From: Synechococcales cyanobacterium CNB
GTDB lineage: Bacteria > Planctomycetota > Phycisphaerae > Phycisphaerales > UBA1924
Assembly (NCBI GenBank): GCA_030263455.1
Contig: SZOZ01000001.1
Coordinates: forward strand, 248,001-312,000
Direction of reading: 5' to 3'
Length of the DNA: 64,000 nt
In this document: piece by piece, positions 56,403-63,902 of the stretch
How positions within the stretch are numbered: position 1 is the stretch's first letter
Layout: each line of letters starts with the position of its first letter
Translations under genes and position numbers: made by a program
The notes under the pieces: generated by a model
Databases searched by the model: none
What the model was told of the DNA's origin: nothing
The model's input: only the letters and a program-made list of their open reading frames with translations

Positions 56403-56430
56403 TTGACAACTGCCGTCAGGGCCGTACCCT
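56403..56430 (+). promoter_or_regulatory. Sigma-70 promoter of the S10 operon
   Basis: TTGACA (56403-56408), 16-bp spacer, TACCCT (56425-56430). Predicted start is near 56437. Confidence 0.7.
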
Positions 56431-56647
56431 ACGGGGCTTGTCTCCGAGGGAGGCAGAGCGCGCGCACAGGCAGAGCTTGGCGCGGGTCACGAGCTGGCCG
56501 GTCCGGCGGGAACGGCCGCCAGAGTTCGGGGAGTGAACCGAATCGCGTCCGGAGATCCGGGCGTGTCGGTGTGGATCGCCGGTCGGGCGTTCCGATCGGC
56601 GTGCGGTGTGTGTCCCACGAACGCGCGTGCGGGCACGGAGTGGTAGG

Positions 56648-56666
56648 GCCGACGGCGAGCGTCGGC
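56648..56666 (+). promoter_or_regulatory. Leader hairpin upstream of rpsJ
   Basis: Perfect stem GCCGACG / CGTCGGC with a 5-nt loop, ending 15 bp before the rpsJ ATG. It could affect ribosome access; a link to L4 autoregulation as in E. coli is only a possibility. Confidence 0.5.
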
Positions 56667-56681
56667 GATGCGGGGCGCACG

Positions 56682-56990
56682 ATGACGGGCGGGAAGATCC
56701 GAATCCGGATGGAGGCGTACGACCACATCGCGCTGGACGCTTCGGCGCGCGAGATCGTGGAGCACGCGAAGCGCACGAACGCGAAGGTCGCGGGTCCGAT
56801 CCCGCTGCCGACGCGGATCGAGCGGTACACCGTGCTGCGCTCGCCGTTCATCGACAAGAAGAGCCGCGAGCAGTACGAGATTCGTACCCACAAGAGGATT
56901 ATCGACATCATCGAGCCGAACGCGCGGACGGTCGAGGCGCTCAATCGACTTGTTGTCCCCGCGGGCGTGTTCGTGAAGATCAAGGCGTGA
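56682..56990 (+). CDS. rpsJ: 30S ribosomal protein S10
   Basis: 102 residues, the usual length. [41 protein letters not shown] and [20 protein letters not shown]-like sequence are the S10 signature, ending in [13 protein letters not shown]. First gene of the S10 operon behind a promoter at 56403-56430. ATG 56682 has only a weak ribosome-binding site (GGGGCG), and a hairpin precedes it. S10 also acts in transcription antitermination. Confidence 0.97.
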
Positions 56991-57091
56991 CGTGTTCCGG
57001 GCCGGTCCTCAGTCGAGAGGGTCGGCCCGGTGAGTTTGAGAGAAGGCTTCCTCTGCCCGGAGAGGCACGAAGCAGCGAAGGACGACGGACG

Positions 57092-57778
57092 ATGGGCCTG
57101 ACACTGCTGGGCAAGAAGATCGGCATGACGCGCGTCTTCAACGACGCGAACGTCAGCGTGCCCGTGACCGTCATCGAGGTCGGGCCGTGCGTGGTGACGC
57201 AGGTGCGCACGGACGACCGCGACGGGTACTCCGCCGTGCAGGTCGGATACGGCGAGATCAAGCCCCGCCGCTCGACGATGGCGATGATCGCGCACGACGC
57301 GAAGGCCGGAACCACGCCCAAGCGTGTGCATGTCGAGTCTCGGCTCGGCGCGGACGAGGCGTCGGCGTTCGAGGCGGGCCAGGCGCTCGGTGTCGACCGG
57401 TTCGAGGGCGTGCCCTACGTGGACGTGATCGGTGTAAGCAAGGGCAAGGGCTTCGCCGGCACCATGAAGCGGCACAACTTCAAGGGCATGACCGCCACGC
57501 ACGGAACGGAGCGCAAACACCGATCTCCCGGCTCGATCGGCGGCCTGGCGACGAATCGCGGCTTCAGCGGCAAGCTGAAGAAGGGCAAGCGCATGTCCGG
57601 GCACCTCGGCGCGGACCGTGTCACGGCGCGAAGCCTCGACGTGGTGCGGATCGACGCGGAAAAAGGTCTGCTGCTCGTGAAGGGACCGGTCCCTGGCCCC
57701 TATGGTTCGGTGGTGGAGGTTCGGCCGGCGATCCGGCTGAACAAGAGCAAGGCGAAGAAGGCTGCCGCAAAGAAGTAG
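57092..57778 (+). CDS. rplC: 50S ribosomal protein L3
   Basis: 228 residues. LTLLGKKIGMTRVFNDAN at the start, GVSKGKGFAGTMKRHNFKG in the core loop and RMSGHLGADRVTARSLDVV near the C-terminus are L3 signatures; L3 nucleates 50S assembly near the peptidyl transferase centre. The position equivalent to the methylated Gln150 of E. coli is His, as in some other bacteria. ATG 57092 follows rpsJ by 101 bp, and the long gap to rplD follows. Confidence 0.96.
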   Translation: MGLTLLGKKIGMTRVFNDANVSVPVTVIEVGPCVVTQVRTDDRDGYSAVQVGYGEIKPRRSTMAMIAHDAKAGTTPKRVHVESRLGADEASAFEAGQALGVDRFEGVPYVDVIGVSKGKGFAGTMKRHNFKGMTATHGTERKHRSPGSIGGLATNRGFSGKLKKGKRMSGHLGADRVTARSLDVVRIDAEKGLLLVKGPVPGPYGSVVEVRPAIRLNKSKAKKAAAKK

Positions 57779-58038
57779 CGGCTTGAAACAGGCGACCTCC
57801 GCGGGTGAGAGCGACTCGCCCGGGAGGCCCGGAGGGTCGGAGGCGAATGCCGACGAAACCGCCGGGCGGCAACAGGAGACGCATGCGACCCGTCGCGTGG
57901 CGGGTCGCGGGAAGGCAGCCGAGTCGAAGCCGACCCGGCCCCCATCGGGGAAGCCCGATGGCCCGCGAGGGCAACAGGGGAGGGCGGATAGGCGAGCCGG
58001 GCGAAGCCCGGGGCAAGGCGCAGGGCGAGGTAAGACGC
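57779..58038 (+). other. Hairpin-rich 260-bp gap between rplC and rplD
   Basis: Contains three perfect stems: 57885-57908 (GCGACCCG/CGGGTCGC), 57942-57961 (CCATCGGG-GAAG-CCCGATGG) and 57997-58011 (CCGGGC-GAA-GCCCGG). The frame of rplD is open through most of it (from GTG 57805), giving a very Arg/Gly-rich 78-residue extension if translated. Elsewhere in this operon gaps are mostly under 35 bp. Confidence 0.7.
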
Positions 58039-58740
58039 ATGGATGTCCCCGTCTACAACACGAAGGGCGACGAGGTCGCGACGCTCAACATCGACGAGCA
58101 GTCCCTGGGCGGGACGGTGAATGCCGCGCTGATCAAGCAGGCGTACGTGATGTACCATGCCAATCTTCGGCAGGGTTCGTCGCGGACGAAGAACCGCCAC
58201 GAGGTCGAAGGCTCGACGAAGAAGATCTACAAGCAGAAGGGCACGGGCCGGGCGCGCCACGGCGACCGGAAGGTGCCGCAGTTCCGCGGCGGCGGGCACG
58301 CCTTCGCCAAGCGTCGGACTCGTGAGGACTACCACCTCTCGATGCCGACGAAGATGCGGCGCAAGGCGAACCGCAACGCGCTGCTGGCGAAACTGGTGGA
58401 CAACGAGGTGCGCGTGGTGGACGACCTGGCCTTCGCCGAGCCGAAGACCAGGTCGTTTGTCGATCTGCTCGGCGCATTGAAGGTTGATCGCAGCGCGCTG
58501 GTCGCGCTCTCGGGCGACCGCGAGCGGCAGCGGAACGCCGCGCTCTCGGCGCGGAACATCGACGGCGTGACGCTCTGCCGTTCCGACCAGCTGACGTGCT
58601 TCAACATGCTGAACCACCGCTACCTGGTGATCGGTCGGCGGGAGTTGGAGTCGTGGCTGAACGGGCCGAGCAGCCAGACGGGCAAGTCGGCGAAGGTCGA
58701 GCCAATGGGCCGCGCAAAGGCGGGCGGGGAGGCGAAGTGA
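58039..58740 (+). CDS. rplD: 50S ribosomal protein L4
   Basis: 233 residues. [19 protein letters not shown] begins the protein; the basic extended loop [20 protein letters not shown] leads into [20 protein letters not shown], a near-invariant L4 segment lining the exit tunnel. In E. coli L4 also represses this operon. ATG 58039 has GAGG about 9 bp upstream and matches the usual L4 start, so the in-frame upstream extension is treated as non-coding. Its stop TGA overlaps the rplW ATG. Confidence 0.96.
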
Positions 58741-59018
58741 TGAACCCTGCGGACGTGATCAAGCGGCCGCTGCTGACCGAGAAGTCCACGCTCGGGATGA
58801 ACGAGCGCGGGCACTACGCGTTCGTGATCGACCGCCGCGCGTCGAAGACGGACGTGAAGCGGGCGGTCGAGACGCTGTACGGCGTGAAGGTCGAGCGGGT
58901 GTGGACGCAGAACCAGAAGGGCCGGCGGCGCCGCCTGCGGTACGGGTGGGTCAAGGAGCCGGTGGTGAAGAAGGCGAGCGTTCGTCTGGCGGAGGGCCAG
59001 TCGATCGAGTTGTTCTGA
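58740..59018 (+). CDS. rplW: 50S ribosomal protein L23
   Basis: 92 residues. DVIKRPLLTEKSTLGMNER, then YAFVIDRRASKTDVKRAVE and LYGVKVERVWTQNQKGRRR define L23, the exit-tunnel protein that docks trigger factor and SRP. ATG 58740 shares one base with the rplD stop (TGATG), so translation is coupled. The length is normal. Confidence 0.97.
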   Translation: MNPADVIKRPLLTEKSTLGMNERGHYAFVIDRRASKTDVKRAVETLYGVKVERVWTQNQKGRRRRLRYGWVKEPVVKKASVRLAEGQSIELF

Positions 59019-59029
59019 GGTGATTGACG

Positions 59030-59887
59030 ATGCCGATCCGCACATACAAACCGACGAGCGCCGGACGCCGCAACGCCTCCGTGAACACGCACGCGGAAGT
59101 GACAAAGAAGCGGCCCGAGAAGTCGCTTGTGCGTCCGCTCCGCAAGAAGGGCGGGCGGAATCACCACGGGATCATCACCTCACGCGGACGGGGCGGCGGC
59201 GTGAAGCGGATGTATCGCCTCATCGACTTCCGGCGCAAGGACCGCGACGGCATCGAGGGTAAGGTCATCGGTGTCGAGTACGATCCCAACCGCTCCTGCC
59301 ACATCGCGTTGATCGAGTACGCGGACGGCGTGAAGCGGTACATTCCCGCGCCTGCCGGGCTGAAGGTGGGGCGCACGGTCGTGTGTTCCAGCAGCGGTCC
59401 GGTCGAGCCCGAGCCGGGCAACGCGATGCCGTTGCGGTACATTCCGACCGGCCTGGAAGTGCACTGCGTGGAGATCACGCCGGGCAAGGGTGGGCAGATG
59501 TGCCGATCGGCCGGGACGAGCGCGCGGCTGAGCAACCGCGAGGGCGGCTTCGCCACGCTCGTGCTGCCGAGCGGTGAAATCCGGCGCGTGCCTGCGGACT
59601 GCCGGGCCACGATCGGCGCGGTCGGCAACGCGGACCACCAGAACCGTCGCCTTGGCAAGGCGGGGCTGACGCGCAAGCTGGGCCGCCGCCCGATCACACG
59701 CGGCGTCGCGAAGAGCCACCACGCCCACCCGCTGGGCGGCGGCGAGGGCCGCTCGAAGAGCAACCGTGCGCCGTGCGGTCCGACTGGCGTGCCGGCCAAG
59801 GGTGGGAGCACTCGCAATCGGAAGCAGCACAGCGAGAAGATGATCATCCGTCGTCGGTACAGCCGCCGTTACGGGCAGTTGAAGTGA
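59030..59887 (+). CDS. rplB: 50S ribosomal protein L2, with a divergent C-terminal loop
   Basis: 285 residues. Early RRNASVNTHAEVTKK is unusual, but GIITSRGRGGGVKRMYRLIDF, GVEYDPNRSCHIALIEYADG and AGTSARLSNREGGFATLVLP are clear L2. The C-terminal loop reads GVAKSHHAHPLGGGEGRSKS where most bacteria have a MNPVDHPHGGGEGR form; the key histidine is kept (H233, codon 59726-59728). ATG 59030 was chosen over TTG 59024. The gene follows rplW by 11 bp. Confidence 0.96.
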   Translation: MPIRTYKPTSAGRRNASVNTHAEVTKKRPEKSLVRPLRKKGGRNHHGIITSRGRGGGVKRMYRLIDFRRKDRDGIEGKVIGVEYDPNRSCHIALIEYADGVKRYIPAPAGLKVGRTVVCSSSGPVEPEPGNAMPLRYIPTGLEVHCVEITPGKGGQMCRSAGTSARLSNREGGFATLVLPSGEIRRVPADCRATIGAVGNADHQNRRLGKAGLTRKLGRRPITRGVAKSHHAHPLGGGEGRSKSNRAPCGPTGVPAKGGSTRNRKQHSEKMIIRRRYSRRYGQLK

Positions 59888-59904
59888 TCTGAAGGACGAG
59901 GCAC

Positions 59905-60195
59905 ATGGGACGCAGTCTGAAGAAAGGCCCGTACGTCGTGGAGAAGCTCTACCGGAAGGTGGAGCGTCTGAACCAGCAGAACAAGCGCGAGCCGGTGAAG
60001 ACGTGGTCGCGTCGCTGCACGATCGTGCCGGAGTTCGTGGGGCACACGTTCAAGGTGCACAACGGTCGGGTGTTCATCGACGTGTTCGTCACCGAGGACA
60101 TGGTGGGGCACAAGCTGGGCGAGTTCAGCGCGACCCGCACGTTCCGCGGGCACACGAACAAGAAGGAAGGCATCAAGGCGGGCGAGTCCGCCTGA
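59905..60195 (+). CDS. rpsS: 30S ribosomal protein S19
   Basis: 96 residues. [41 protein letters not shown] and [18 protein letters not shown] are the S19 signature; it binds 16S rRNA in the head of the small subunit with S13. ATG 59905 has GAAGGACGAG upstream. The next start codon is 29 bp downstream of its stop. Confidence 0.97.
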
Positions 60196-60224
60196 GGCGG
60201 ACGAAGCAGCAGAGGGACCGTGCC

Positions 60225-60770
60225 GTGAGGATTCGAGGCGACAAACTGAGACTGCTGGCTGAGCAGAGCGGCGTGACGGCCGACGAGTTGGCGCGCGCGG
60301 TCGAGCGGACGGGCCTCAAGGGCGACCGGGCCGCGACCGCCGTGCGGAACTGGATGTCCGGGCGCGATCACCCCCGCTGCAAGGCCGCCGACGTGGCGAG
60401 ACTGGCCGAGTCGCTCGGGTGCGAGGTTCGCGACCTGGCCCGGTTCACGAGCAGCGTGCGGTACAGCCGCGGCAGCACCCGCAAGGCCCGGCTGGTGGCG
60501 GACATGGTCCGCGGGCGCACGGTCGAGGACGCGCTGAACGTGCTCGCGTTCAGCCCGAAGCGTGCGGCGACGAACGTTCGCAAGGCGCTCTCTGCGGCCG
60601 TGGCGGACGCGGAAGCGGCGGAAGCGGACGTCGGCAACCTGATCGTCGCCGAGAGCCGCGTGGACGAAGGGGCGCAGATCAAGCGGTTCCGTCCGAAGGA
60701 CCGCGGTCGTGCCCACCAGATCATCAAGCAGACGAGCCACATCACGATCGGCGTGGAGGAGCGCGGCTGA
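60225..60770 (+). CDS. rplV: 50S ribosomal protein L22 with N-terminal helix-turn-helix-like extension
   Basis: 181 residues, against about 110 for ordinary L22. The uL22 core occupies about residues 74-181: FTSSVRYSRGSTRKARLVAD, VLAFSPKRAATNVRKAL and FRPKDRGRAHQIIKQTSHI. The first 73 residues form a separate helical unit: KLRLLAEQSGVTADELARAV, then AATAVRNWMSGRDHPRCKA and DVARLAESLGCEVRDLARF, reading like an XRE-type helix-turn-helix. The start is GTG 60225 with GAGGGA 7 bp upstream; no start nearer the core has a better site. Its stop overlaps the rpsC ATG. The extension could be a DNA/RNA-binding or regulatory module; this is inference. Confidence 0.93.
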   Translation: MRIRGDKLRLLAEQSGVTADELARAVERTGLKGDRAATAVRNWMSGRDHPRCKAADVARLAESLGCEVRDLARFTSSVRYSRGSTRKARLVADMVRGRTVEDALNVLAFSPKRAATNVRKALSAAVADAEAAEADVGNLIVAESRVDEGAQIKRFRPKDRGRAHQIIKQTSHITIGVEERG

Positions 60771-61477
60771 TGGGACAGAAGACGCACCCGTTCGGACTGA
60801 GGCTCGGCATCACGGAGGCGCACCGTTCGCGGTGGTATGCGCCGAAGGCGCTCTACGGGGAACTGCTGGTCGAGGACGAGAAGATTCGCCAGCATCTTGA
60901 CAAGCGTCTGAACCGGACCCCGCCGAACGCCGCGGTGTCGGACATCCACATCGAGCGCACCCGCGAGGAACTGAAGGTCATCATCCGGACGGCGCGCCCG
61001 GGTCTGGTGATCGGCCCGAAGGGTGCCGAGGTCGAGCGCATCACGCAGGAACTGGCGTACATGACGGGCCGGAAGGTGGCGATCTCGATTATCGAGATCA
61101 AGCAGCCGGACCTGGACGCGCAGCTGGTGGCCGAGGGCGTGGCGGAGCAGCTGGCCAAGCGGGCGGCGTTCCGTCGCGTGGTCAAGACTCGGGCCGAGGG
61201 CGTGATGCAGGCCGGCGCGAAGGGCGTGAAGATCCTGATCTCGGGCCGATTGGGCGGCGCTGAGATGAGTCGCCAGCTGGACGTGCGTCTCGGTTCGCTG
61301 CCGCTGAGCACGCTGCAGGCGCATGTGGACTATGGGTTCGCCGAGGCTCGGACGGGCTACGGCGTGATCGGTGTGAAGGTGTGGATCTACCGCGGGATGT
61401 ACGACGAGCAGCAGACCGAAGAAGAGAGCGCGTCGCGTGCGGCGGGCGCGAGGCCGCGGGCGCGCGGTCGTCACTGA
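60770..61477 (+). CDS. rpsC: 30S ribosomal protein S3
   Basis: 235 residues. MGQKTHPFGLRLGITEAHRS, KH domain with VIIRTARPGLVIGPKGAEVE (GxxG loop), AAFRRVVKTRAEGVMQAGAKG and GRLGGAEMSR identify S3, the mRNA-entry protein. ATG 60770 overlaps the rplV stop (TGATG), so translation is coupled. The C-terminus is a short Arg/Ala tail. Confidence 0.97.
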   Translation: MGQKTHPFGLRLGITEAHRSRWYAPKALYGELLVEDEKIRQHLDKRLNRTPPNAAVSDIHIERTREELKVIIRTARPGLVIGPKGAEVERITQELAYMTGRKVAISIIEIKQPDLDAQLVAEGVAEQLAKRAAFRRVVKTRAEGVMQAGAKGVKILISGRLGGAEMSRQLDVRLGSLPLSTLQAHVDYGFAEARTGYGVIGVKVWIYRGMYDEQQTEEESASRAAGARPRARGRH

Positions 61478-61509
61478 GACACGGAACGAGCAGCAGCGGA
61501 GATTGACGG

Positions 61510-61935
61510 ATGCCTCCCTACAAGATTCCCAAGCGAGTGAAGTACCGCAAGGAGTTCCGGCGCGTGCGCGATCGCCGCGCGACGAAGGGGAACTACGTCG
61601 CGTTCGGGGACTATGGCCTGCAGGCGCTCGAAGGGTGCTGGCTGCCGTCGAACGTGATCGAGGCTGGGCGTATCGCCGCCCAACACCTGCTGAAGCGCGA
61701 GGGCAAGCTGTTCATCCGCGTGTTCCCGGACAAGCCCATCAGCAAGAAGCCGCTGGAGACCCGCATGGGCACCGGCAAGGCGGACGTGGAGTACTGGGCG
61801 GCGCGGGTGCGTGCGGGGACGATGCTCTTCGAGATCGCGGGCGTGCCGGAGGACGTGGCGAAGCAGGCCTTGTCGCGAGTGGCGATGAAGATGCCGGTGC
61901 GGTGCCGGTTCGTGGGCCGGCGGATCACGGCGTGA
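61510..61935 (+). CDS. rplP: 50S ribosomal protein L16
   Basis: 141 residues. VKYRKEFRRVRDRRATKGNY, FGDYGLQALEGCWLPSNVIE and the RMGTGKADVEYWAARVRAGT loop are L16 signatures; L16 sits by the A-site tRNA elbow and is needed late in 50S assembly. The gene follows rpsC after 32 bp. Confidence 0.97.
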   Translation: MPPYKIPKRVKYRKEFRRVRDRRATKGNYVAFGDYGLQALEGCWLPSNVIEAGRIAAQHLLKREGKLFIRVFPDKPISKKPLETRMGTGKADVEYWAARVRAGTMLFEIAGVPEDVAKQALSRVAMKMPVRCRFVGRRITA

Positions 61936-61948
61936 GGAGGTCGGCGCG

Positions 61949-62155
61949 ATGACAGGCCCTGAGATCAGGCGGATGAAGGACGAGGAACTGACGATCGAAC
62001 TGCGCACGCTGCGCGAGAAGCTGTTCAGGATGCGGACGCAGGCCGCGAGCGAGAAGATCGAGGACACGTCGCTCTTCCGGAAGGTGCGGCGTGACATCGC
62101 GAGGCTGGAGACGGAGCGGAGCCGGCGCAGGGCGTCGGTCGGGGCGAGAGCGTGA
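61949..62155 (+). CDS. rpmC: 50S ribosomal protein L29
   Basis: 68 residues, a helical hairpin. MTGPEIRRMKDEELTIELRT, LREKLFRMRTQAASEKIEDT and VRRDIARLETERSRRRA are L29 signatures, with the family's central glycine/serine-poor helix pair. Starts 13 bp after rplP. Confidence 0.95.
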   Translation: MTGPEIRRMKDEELTIELRTLREKLFRMRTQAASEKIEDTSLFRKVRRDIARLETERSRRRASVGARA

Positions 62156-62183
62156 CCGGCGGATCGGCTGAGGACCATCGACG

Positions 62184-62468
62184 ATGAGCGAAGCGAAGAC
62201 GGAATCCAGGACGACGAAGATCGGCGTGGTCGAGACCGACGGGCGCGACAAGACGCGCAAGGTGGTCGTGCGGTTCACCGCGCGGCACCCGAAGTACGGA
62301 AAGTACGTGCAGCGGCGGACGGTGCTGCACGTGCACGATCCCGAGAACGAGAGCCGCCGGGGAGACGTGGTGGAGGTGACGCAGTGCCGCCCTGTGAGCA
62401 AGACGAAGCGGTGGCGTCTGGTCCGGGTCGTGGAGCGCAAGAGCGAGCGCCTGATCGAGGGCGCGTGA
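62184..62468 (+). CDS. rpsQ: 30S ribosomal protein S17
   Basis: 94 residues, OB-fold. GVVETDGRDKTRKVVVRF, HPKYGKYVQRRTVLHVHDPE and GDVVEVTQCRPVSKTKRWRL define S17. It begins 28 bp after rpmC. Confidence 0.97.
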   Translation: MSEAKTESRTTKIGVVETDGRDKTRKVVVRFTARHPKYGKYVQRRTVLHVHDPENESRRGDVVEVTQCRPVSKTKRWRLVRVVERKSERLIEGA

Positions 62469-62488
62469 GAACGGGTTGAGGTGCCGTC

Positions 62489-62875
62489 ATGCTGCAGCAG
62501 GAATCCAGGTGCGAGGTCGCGGACAACTCGGGCGCGAAGATCGCGTACGTCATCAAGGTGTACGGCGGCTCGACGCGACGCGGCGGTTTCCGCCGGCGGA
62601 CGGCGGGCGTGGGCGACCGGGTGCTCGTAAGCGTGAAGAAGGCGCTGCCCGGGGCCGAGGTGAAGCCGGGCGACATGTCGAAGGCCGTCGTCGTGCGGAC
62701 GGCAAAGCCCAAGCGTCGTGCGGACGGCTCGTACGTGCGGTTCGATCGCAGTGCCGTTGTGCTGATCAACGACGATGGGAACCCGAAGGGAACGCGCATC
62801 TTCGGCCCTGTGGCGAGAGAGCTGCGCGAGCGGAACTACATGAAGATCGTTTCTCTGGCCTCCGAGGTGGTGTGA
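62489..62875 (+). CDS. rplN: 50S ribosomal protein L14
   Basis: 128 residues. [39 protein letters not shown] and the late [20 protein letters not shown] are L14 signatures; it contributes to an intersubunit bridge. The insertion [20 protein letters not shown] replaces a shorter loop in some relatives. Starts 20 bp after rpsQ. Confidence 0.97.
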
Positions 62876-62889
62876 GGGAAGGTGATCCG

Positions 62890-63234
62890 ATGCCCAGGCA
62901 CGTGAAGAAAGGCGACGTGGTGATCGTGACCTCCGGCTCGCACAAGGGCCGGCAGGGTGAGGTCATGCGCGTGATCCCCGACAAGGAGCGGGTAGTTGTG
63001 AAAGGCGTGAACCTCCGCGTGAAGCACCTCAAGCCCACGCGGACCAGCCCACAGGGGGGGATCATCACCAAGGAGGCGCCGATCCACATCAGCAACGTCA
63101 GCCCGGTCGTGGAGGGGCGGCCGACGCGCGTGCGGTTCGAGGTGAAGCCGGACGGGAGCAAGGTTCGCGTCGCGGTGCGCGGTGGCAAGACGCTGGGCAA
63201 GGTGCGCGGGCCGCGCACGAAGGCGGGGGCGTGA
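62890..63234 (+). CDS. rplX: 50S ribosomal protein L24
   Basis: 114 residues with a KOW motif: HVKKGDVVIVTSGSHKGRQG, followed by VVVKGVNLRVKHLKPTRTSP and GGIITKEAPIHISNV. L24 is an early 50S assembly protein. ATG 62890 is the start. The C-terminal strand KVRVAVRGGKTLGKVRGPR is extended and basic. Confidence 0.96.
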   Translation: MPRHVKKGDVVIVTSGSHKGRQGEVMRVIPDKERVVVKGVNLRVKHLKPTRTSPQGGIITKEAPIHISNVSPVVEGRPTRVRFEVKPDGSKVRVAVRGGKTLGKVRGPRTKAGA

Positions 63235-63266
63235 GGCCCGGAGCGGGCAGAACGGCGGGTTGAATC

Positions 63267-63902
63267 ATGGCAAAAGACGCGACAAAGCAGAAGAAGGGCA
63301 AGAGCGGCGTGGTCGAGGGCGCGGAGGCGGCGCGGCCGTCGCGCCTGCGTGCGCGCTACGACGCCGAGGTCCGGCCGAAGGTGACCGAGCGTTTCGGGAT
63401 CGAGAATCGCATGGCGATGCCGAAGCTCGAGAAGATCGTGGTCAACGTGAACATGGGGCGTCACCTGGACGGAACAAAGCTCCCGCCGACCGTGAAGCAA
63501 CAGGTGCTCGACACGCTCCGAGCGATCAGCGGGCAGAAGCCGGTCGTGCTGAAGGCGAAGAAATCGGTCTCGAACTTCAAGGTTCGCGCGGGGTACGAGA
63601 CGGCTGCGATGGTGACGCTCCGTCGCGACCGGATGTGGCACTTCCTTGACCGGCTCATCAACCTTGCTACGCCCCGCATCAAGGACTTCCGCGGCCTGTC
63701 GCGGACGGCCTTCGACCGCCAGGGCAACTACTCGATGGGCTTGAACGAGCAGGGCGTGTTCCCCGAGATCAACATGGCCGAGGCCCAGTTCACGCACGGG
63801 ATGAACATCAACTTTTCCTTCTCGAACTCGGACCCGGAGAAGAGCCTCTTCGTGCTCGAGCAGTTGGGGATGCCGTTCCAGAAGGTGGGCGAGAAGAACT
63901 GA
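63267..63902 (+). CDS. rplE: 50S ribosomal protein L5
   Basis: 211 residues. After a basic N-terminal extension of about 25 residues comes RLRARYDAEVRPKVTERFGI, then LEKIVVNVNMGRHLDG, TGKKPVV-like GQKPVVLKAKKSVSNFKVR and the late AEAQFTHGMNINFSF. L5 binds 5S rRNA and the P-site tRNA. The start is ATG 63267 (MAKDATKQ). Confidence 0.96.
   Translation: MAKDATKQKKGKSGVVEGAEAARPSRLRARYDAEVRPKVTERFGIENRMAMPKLEKIVVNVNMGRHLDGTKLPPTVKQQVLDTLRAISGQKPVVLKAKKSVSNFKVRAGYETAAMVTLRRDRMWHFLDRLINLATPRIKDFRGLSRTAFDRQGNYSMGLNEQGVFPEINMAEAQFTHGMNINFSFSNSDPEKSLFVLEQLGMPFQKVGEKN

Follow-up and report, generated by a model that had tools for sequence, protein, structure and literature searches.

The window, i.e., the whole stretch of 64,000 nucleotides that was analysed, contains an S10-type ribosomal protein operon in which rplV, the gene of the ribosomal protein uL22, is flanked by rpsS (uS19) and rpsC (uS3). 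uL22 occurs universally in ribosomes and helps to line the nascent-chain tunnel. Its gene occupies positions 60225-60770 on the forward strand, starts with GTG, ends with a stop codon at 60770 and encodes 181 residues; the host genome holds only this one rplV copy. A sequence-only reading had described here a uL22 reading frame with an N-terminal extension behind a good ribosome-binding site. Both are present as described, the former recognized by PF00237 over residues 78-177 (108.6 bits, cut-off 28) and the latter as GAGGG at 60212-60216. The extension stands, but its length, which had been put at 73 residues, is corrected to about 70-71, because most of the examined uL22 proteins lacking the helix-turn-helix (HTH) start approximately 8-9 residues before the RYxR-type motif. 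The locus comprises the following features.

56682..63902, forward strand: S10-type ribosomal protein operon from uS10 to uL5, containing the fusion (open reading frames, homology)
60211..60217, forward strand: Shine-Dalgarno-like AGAGGGA of rplV, with the GAGGG core (sequence)
60225..60227, forward strand: GTG start codon of rplV (sequence; at the same place, 80 relatives have GTG (64) or ATG (16))
60225..60437, forward strand: predicted N-terminal Cro/C1 (XRE) HTH, residues 1-71 (HTH_31, AlphaFold2, VIA-align)
60279..60302, forward strand: HTH helix 2, residues 19-26 (DSSP on the predicted model)
60321..60356, forward strand: helix 3 at the recognition-helix position, residues 33-44, with conserved N42 and W43 (DSSP on the model, alignments)
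60357..60383, forward strand: loop between helices 3 and 4, residues 45-53, with GRDHPRCK (alignments, model)
60438..60470, forward strand: continuous beta strand, residues 72-82, leading from the HTH into the first uL22 strand (DSSP on the full-length model)
60456..60767, forward strand: uL22 body, residues 78-181 (PF00237, Foldseek to ribosomal uL22 chains)

A GTG start seems unusual for a ribosomal protein gene, and it takes the place of ATG in most of the relatives (L059-L138). Further upstream, rpsJ (ATG at 56682) is preceded by an S10-operon leader of ~245 nt, strongly conserved in the genus (56403-56681), at the head of which a promoter-like TTGACA (56403) and TACCCT (56425) lie 16 bases apart. 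Control through this leader RNA region is possible.

The N-terminal domain and the uL22 body

The gene product belongs to uL22 by profile score, by the fold of its body and by being encoded once in the genome, between the uS19 and uS3 genes of the S10 operon. TIGR01044 matches with 106.7 bits (cut-off 73.65), and in a Foldseek search with the whole model all 50 matches listed were bacterial or chloroplast uL22 chains (TMt 0.83-0.93 for uL22 chains of <120 residues; E down to 1e-10). It thus resembles bacterial uL22 (PF00237, TIGR01044) in body, operon position and predicted fold, but differs in the ~70 HTH residues preceding the body: no alignment reached residues 1-51 with any of the 54 distinct uL22 sequences of solved structures (PDB, E up to 1e-8). 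Another named L22 fusion family, PRK12279/NF008917 (L22 with an unknown fused domain), does not cover the protein, as it scores 53.8 bits against a cut-off of 526 and matches only the L22 part (residues 84-176).

The N-terminus was matched by Pfam HTH_31, which scored 29.5 bits on residues 1-77 alone (cut-off 27) and, with 25.7 bits, just below the cut-off in the whole protein, the match spanning residues 5-73. At E up to 0.01, HTH_31 was found in 44 of 64 homologous N-termini and in 6 of 16 from the distant groups. The match is considered to go beyond chance, as the 44 matching N-termini are joined by the XRE fold of the AlphaFold2 model and by purifying selection on this region (see below). 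The domain also shows W-x-x-G-x-x-x-P, which we take to be a signature of Cro/C1 (XRE) HTHs. Searches of the N-terminus against profiles of solved structures remained weak (best E 0.056, and 0.004 for an HTH protein), and the non-HTH names among these matches were taken as chance.

Structure prediction was based on an alignment of natural sequences, 64 in number (the window protein plus 63 taken from the 80 related loci) and all from family f1, the window's own. The whole protein was modelled with a pLDDT of 94.8 and a pTM of 0.85, and the N-terminus alone with a pLDDT of 93.1. Helices were assigned to residues 5-15, 19-26, 33-44, 54-64 and 68-71, followed by the strand 72-82 running into uL22, so that the model joins HTH and uL22 by a continuous strand, without a flexible linker. 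Structural neighbours of the N-terminus were consistent with this assignment: the 50 Foldseek matches listed (best E 0.025, none <0.001, probability 1.00) were by title mostly Cro/C1 proteins and enzymes with such a domain, the enzymes presumably being carriers of the Cro/C1-type domain. VIA-align returned C.Csp231I (Z 9.8), CylR2 (9.7) and P22 c2, SinR and 434 Cro (8.1-9.2), and since Z values around 8 are common among small helical domains, it is the consistency of this list rather than Z itself that counts as evidence. The enzymes HppE and HEPD also appeared among the structural matches; both possess an XRE-type domain, yet are not regulators. Altogether, the N-terminal ~71 residues are predicted with high confidence to form a five-helix Cro/C1 (XRE) HTH, the assignment resting on structure prediction in f1 and on profiles in the more distant groups. 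The prediction recommended in the sequence-only reading hence yielded an HTH fold, and a model without one, which it had named as counterevidence, did not appear. The five-helix fold is shared with the Cro/C1 regulators C.Csp231I, CylR2, P22 c2, SinR and 434 Cro (Z 8.1-9.8), whereas the rplV HTH, known from sequence and model, is attached to a ribosomal protein.

Translation, selection and distribution

In 11 close pairs of genes, codons 2-74 showed a dN/dS of 0.05-0.27 with most differences at third codon positions, compared with 0.01-0.09 for the uL22 body in the same pairs, revealing the N-terminus to be the faster-evolving part. In two pairs of greater divergence, the N-terminus reached 0.33 and 0.24, with body values of 0.36 and 0.06, respectively. 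The GC content by codon position in the window is 0.70/0.56/0.90 in the extension versus 0.71/0.49/0.91 in the body. Within the set of 81 genes (window and 80 loci), a Shine-Dalgarno-like 4-mer precedes the HTH start in 73. That uL22 itself starts near residue 74-78, the upstream stretch being noncoding or a leader wrongly annotated as protein, might be suspected from an in-frame GTG at window codon 78 and from an in-frame ATG, GTG or TTG at codons 64-84 in 58 of the 81 genes, but it is practically inconceivable in view of the purifying selection on this stretch, the reading frame conserved across the host class, the coding-type GC pattern of the window extension and the low number of internal starts (12/81) with a Shine-Dalgarno-like site. 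An internal start near residue 74 was ruled out by selection together with the Shine-Dalgarno and start-codon counts. Judged by selection, the N-terminal extension is most probably translated, and the start would accordingly lie before the HTH, as had been proposed.

In a sample of 61 genomes including the own one, f1 was represented by 37 genomes, two of them without match, and all 35 others align from residue 1-8. Alignments start at residues 6-11 in five of six f4 genomes, the sixth (G051) being frameshifted, whereas the start lies at residues 65-78 in 16 of the 18 genomes of f2, f3, f5 and f6 and at 41 and 52 in the other two. In G051 (L166), the frameshift sets the first half of the HTH part apart from the remainder of rplV, reflecting either a sequencing error or a recent loss. 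The f1 genome G027 contains a second, weaker uL22 match without HTH, perhaps a contamination.

Extension to 397 genomes of the class with a 30-row profile (alignment A1 of 30 sequences, in which the window protein replaced L001 and near-duplicates and surplus relatives were dropped) gave 379 genomes with a match, whose scores fell into two groups. By hand count, 137 of these 379 carry the HTH (match from profile position 1-3). An rplV alignment across the class had been proposed as a check in the sequence-only reading, and the extension is conserved in frame there. Bearers comprise f1 (44/44), f4 (3/3), f7 (7/7), f8 (5/5), f9 (24/27; one weak match at E 9e-10 uncounted, two without match), f115 (41/42; one without match), f116 (11/11), f118 (1/1) and f119 (1/1). 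All but one of the 137 reached E <=6e-62. The exception, G625 (L170, family f7), scored 9e-51, which is the level of HTH-less genomes, and since most low-scoring genomes were judged by E-value alone, further divergent HTHs of this kind could hide among the low scorers. Its HTH carries an insertion between helices 2 and 3 and a changed helix 3-4 loop.

On the phylum level, a profile of the N-terminus found 22 of 392 genomes at E <=6e-18, in every case at rplV and in a member of the class. Weak matches, from E 6.7e-6 (in a 912-residue frame) to 0.0097, came from eleven genomes not belonging to the class, and beyond the class this sample yielded no HTH at rplV. In a separate uL22 search of 392 phylum genomes, the listed matches from outside the class start at residue 33 or later; ten of them start at 33-49, and five of these ten read through stops. 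Of 510 named relatives, the best 80 were kept, a selection by score that is biased towards HTH bearers; the alignment begins at residue 1 in 79 of them and at residue 5 in the remaining one. Their titles read Phycisphaera, Phycisphaerae, Phycisphaerales, Phycisphaeraceae or Planctomycetota except for two, L083 and L126, titled Cyanobacteria bacterium and Leptolyngbya sp., which encode an HTH-uL22 of Phycisphaerae type and look like misnamed MAGs. The HTH-bearing groups probably include cultured species of Sedimentisphaerales type.

Residue conservation was followed in this 30-sequence alignment and in others: A2 and A3 hold the window and 63 of the 80 loci, G625 is absent from A4 and A5, and G051 is absent from A5 while counted as HTH-bearing in the parsimony analysis. 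N42, W43 and P50 are invariant in the 30 diverse sequences. Of 64 f1 sequences, all retain W43 and P50, and 62 retain N42. A39 is likewise near-invariant. G625 keeps N and W and has lost P50. Strong conservation of the GRDHPRCK loop is confined to f1, the other groups sharing P50 alone. In contrast, the recognition-helix positions 37, 38, 41 and 45, presumably exposed according to XRE anatomy, vary with an entropy of 1.85-2.80 bits in f1. Position 41 is basic in 37 of 64 f1 sequences and in 14 of 16 of the distant set, and the mean net charge is +4.4 for the N-terminal domain versus +8.5 for the uL22 body.

Origin of the fusion

Comparison of the HTH profile of f1 with that of the distant groups (16 of 17 loci, G625 excluded) by hhalign gave a probability of 99.7 and an E of 5e-26. 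Applied to ten HTH-bearing genomes, the f1 profile matched solely the rplV N-terminus (E 2.9e-9 to 3.7e-19), and in the own genome no HTH paralogue better than E 0.38 was found. This specificity does not stem from a scarcity of HTHs, as the Pfam HTH_3 control detected 4-20 XRE domains in the window genome and in five of the ten bearers (one match, in G116, is the rplV domain itself; ten of 20 in G184 are near-identical partials). A separate HTH gene in HTH-less relatives was also considered, and none was found with the f1 profile in nine such genomes (seven of the class, two from outside): seven gave nothing at E up to 1, and the weak matches of the other two were at E 0.12 (G042) and 9.9e-4 (G049), the latter in a 497-residue frame that is probably another HTH protein. 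The computations show that the HTH is conserved at the protein level, that it evolves under purifying selection and is specific to rplV, and that its versions in nine family-level groups are homologous.

The HTH is missing from several sister families. In a tree of 14 S10-operon proteins including the uL22 body (48 taxa), the bearers fall into three clades, namely f1 as sister to the HTH-less f3 (SH-aLRT 98), f4 as sister to the HTH-less f2 (SH-aLRT 91), and f7, f8, f9, f115, f116, f118 and f119 together (SH-aLRT 100). The parsimony minimum on this tree is 3 changes, making three gains formally cheapest compared with one gain and five or six losses among the sampled families. We nevertheless prefer a single origin with subsequent losses, or else a few transfers, over independent recruitment, since the f1 profile picks the rplV domain and not the other XRE domains of the same genomes; the N-terminal domain may also have passed from one lineage to another. 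The gap from uS19 to the uL22 body measures 39-112 bases in 17 HTH-less loci versus 237-339 bases in 20 HTH-bearing ones, and this short distance indicates that the HTH is gone from the former rather than split off in place.

The fusion of an XRE-type HTH to uL22, as the sequence-only reading had claimed it, is therefore backed by sequence, selection, phylogeny and predicted structure: it is real, old and kept by selection. In line with its remark that no such case was known, we found no description of an HTH-uL22 fusion among the papers listed from the open-licence full-text literature, and the accessible portions of PMC7203096 and PMC10039652 do not mention L22. A repressor-type domain kept in many families and absent in their sisters represents a natural experiment in the gain and loss of ribosomal domains.

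Possible roles of the HTH on the ribosome

In our preferred reading, the HTH may well be a constitutive 50S domain at the N-terminus of uL22, a site which we take to lie near the tunnel exit, where it contacts rRNA or a neighbouring protein. HTH-uL22 would be produced in parallel with the rest of the S10-operon proteins, and the strand-joined HTH would become a stoichiometric domain of the 50S subunit, held at a fixed site on the solvent boundary of the uL22 body, close to the tunnel exit. Its surface, i.e., N42, basic neighbours and the helix 3-4 loop, would then hold rRNA or a ribosomal protein, or offer a docking site. Such a role would be accessory and not essential, because whole families do without the domain; their existence means that the contact is not indispensable, and it would also fit a domain of weak usefulness.

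Precedents come from outside bacteria. In EDF1/Mbf1, the Cro/C1-type HTH is located between helices 16 and 33 of the 18S rRNA, and it is also the HTH that mediates the ribosome association of archaeal MBF1 (PMC7486125), so that a domain of this type working on the ribosome through rRNA contact is known. These are separate small-subunit factors with a further N-terminal domain, described in that source as not occurring in bacteria (PMC7486125), while the present HTH belongs to a 50S protein. No MBF1/zinc-ribbon domain was found N-terminal to the rplV HTH, which starts as early as residue 5 and leads into uL22. Should the domain bind nucleic acid, it would be a bacterial XRE domain working on the ribosome, for which, as far as we found, the archaeal and eukaryotic MBF1/EDF1 were the examples so far. 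Concerning the rRNA of these genomes, two 23S patterns gave hits in 8 genomes out of 30 and in none out of 24. Of seven candidate stretches, the two searched with Rfam, L218 and L219, were rejected as rRNA, Rfam seeing none in either. Used as a DNA query, L218 found matches of no more than ~330 bases, in 11 of 26 genomes. At a guess, rRNA genes may be masked in the searched genomes.

Possible, if unlikely, is autoregulation, in which surplus free HTH-uL22 would bind DNA or leader mRNA of the S10 operon via the HTH and repress the operon. The sequence-only reading had suggested such roles, namely that the protein could sense its own excess or control the S10 operon, besides a ribosome-linked regulatory contact. 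The fold is that of classical XRE repressors, and at the recognition helix N42, which we take to be a base-contacting position in the 434 repressor, is almost invariant and could equally mark a true DNA contact. XRE repressors are normally dimers, and the domain attached to uL22 offers no obvious one. The conserved ~245 nt leader behind a promoter-like site would provide a target, but no convincing operator palindrome was seen upstream of rpsJ in one alignment inspected by eye. Moreover, the variation at positions 37, 38, 41 and 45 does not resemble the pattern of a domain reading a single conserved operator and would rather fit a variation-tolerant contact, though this is not proof. Because these exposed positions vary and the HTH is continuous with uL22 in the model, we favour a ribosomal contact over a DNA-binding autoregulator. 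As to functional precedent for DNA binding, eL22 is a protein unrelated to uL22. Drosophila RpL22 (eL22) binds DNA via a histone-like N-terminal domain, and both it and L23a carry histone H1-like N-termini, resembling the present case as extensions of nucleic-acid-binding type, whereas the Drosophila extension is, in the accessible text, a basic histone-like tail and not an HTH (PMC8872304).

We also regard it as unlikely that the HTH is an evolutionary passenger, a harmless folded domain under weak selection for folding or stability of uL22 that might, for example, shield its first strand without contacting nucleic acid. The faster evolution of the N-terminus in close pairs, the sister families without HTH and the direct strand continuity of the model would suit this, as would HppE and HEPD as non-regulatory carriers of an XRE-type domain. 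Against it stands the long retention in nine family-level groups with N42, W43, P50 and A39 near-invariant (P50 being lost in G625), and in f1 the exposed-looking GRDHPRCK loop is conserved beyond what core packing would lead one to expect.

The conserved f1 loop could also point to a protein-protein module, the HTH serving as a platform near which the tunnel opens and on which a class-specific chaperone, targeting or processing factor would dock. The exit is ringed by uL22, uL23, uL24 and uL29, and chloroplast uL22c, likewise an enlarged uL22, is almost doubled by its N- and C-terminal extensions, which are mostly extended in conformation and, in the accessible text, not associated with an HTH (PMC5071890). 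The loop motif of f1 is not common to the other groups beyond P50, and we consider such a platform improbable.

A similarly slim chance is given to the HTH as a sensor present on every large subunit, binding RNA or DNA outside the ribosome core and coupling the state of the ribosome to gene expression. Its targets would be leader mRNA, a nascent transcript, nucleoid DNA or a neighbouring ribosome, and HTH-uL22 would represent a stoichiometric bacterial counterpart of the separate factor EDF1/Mbf1.
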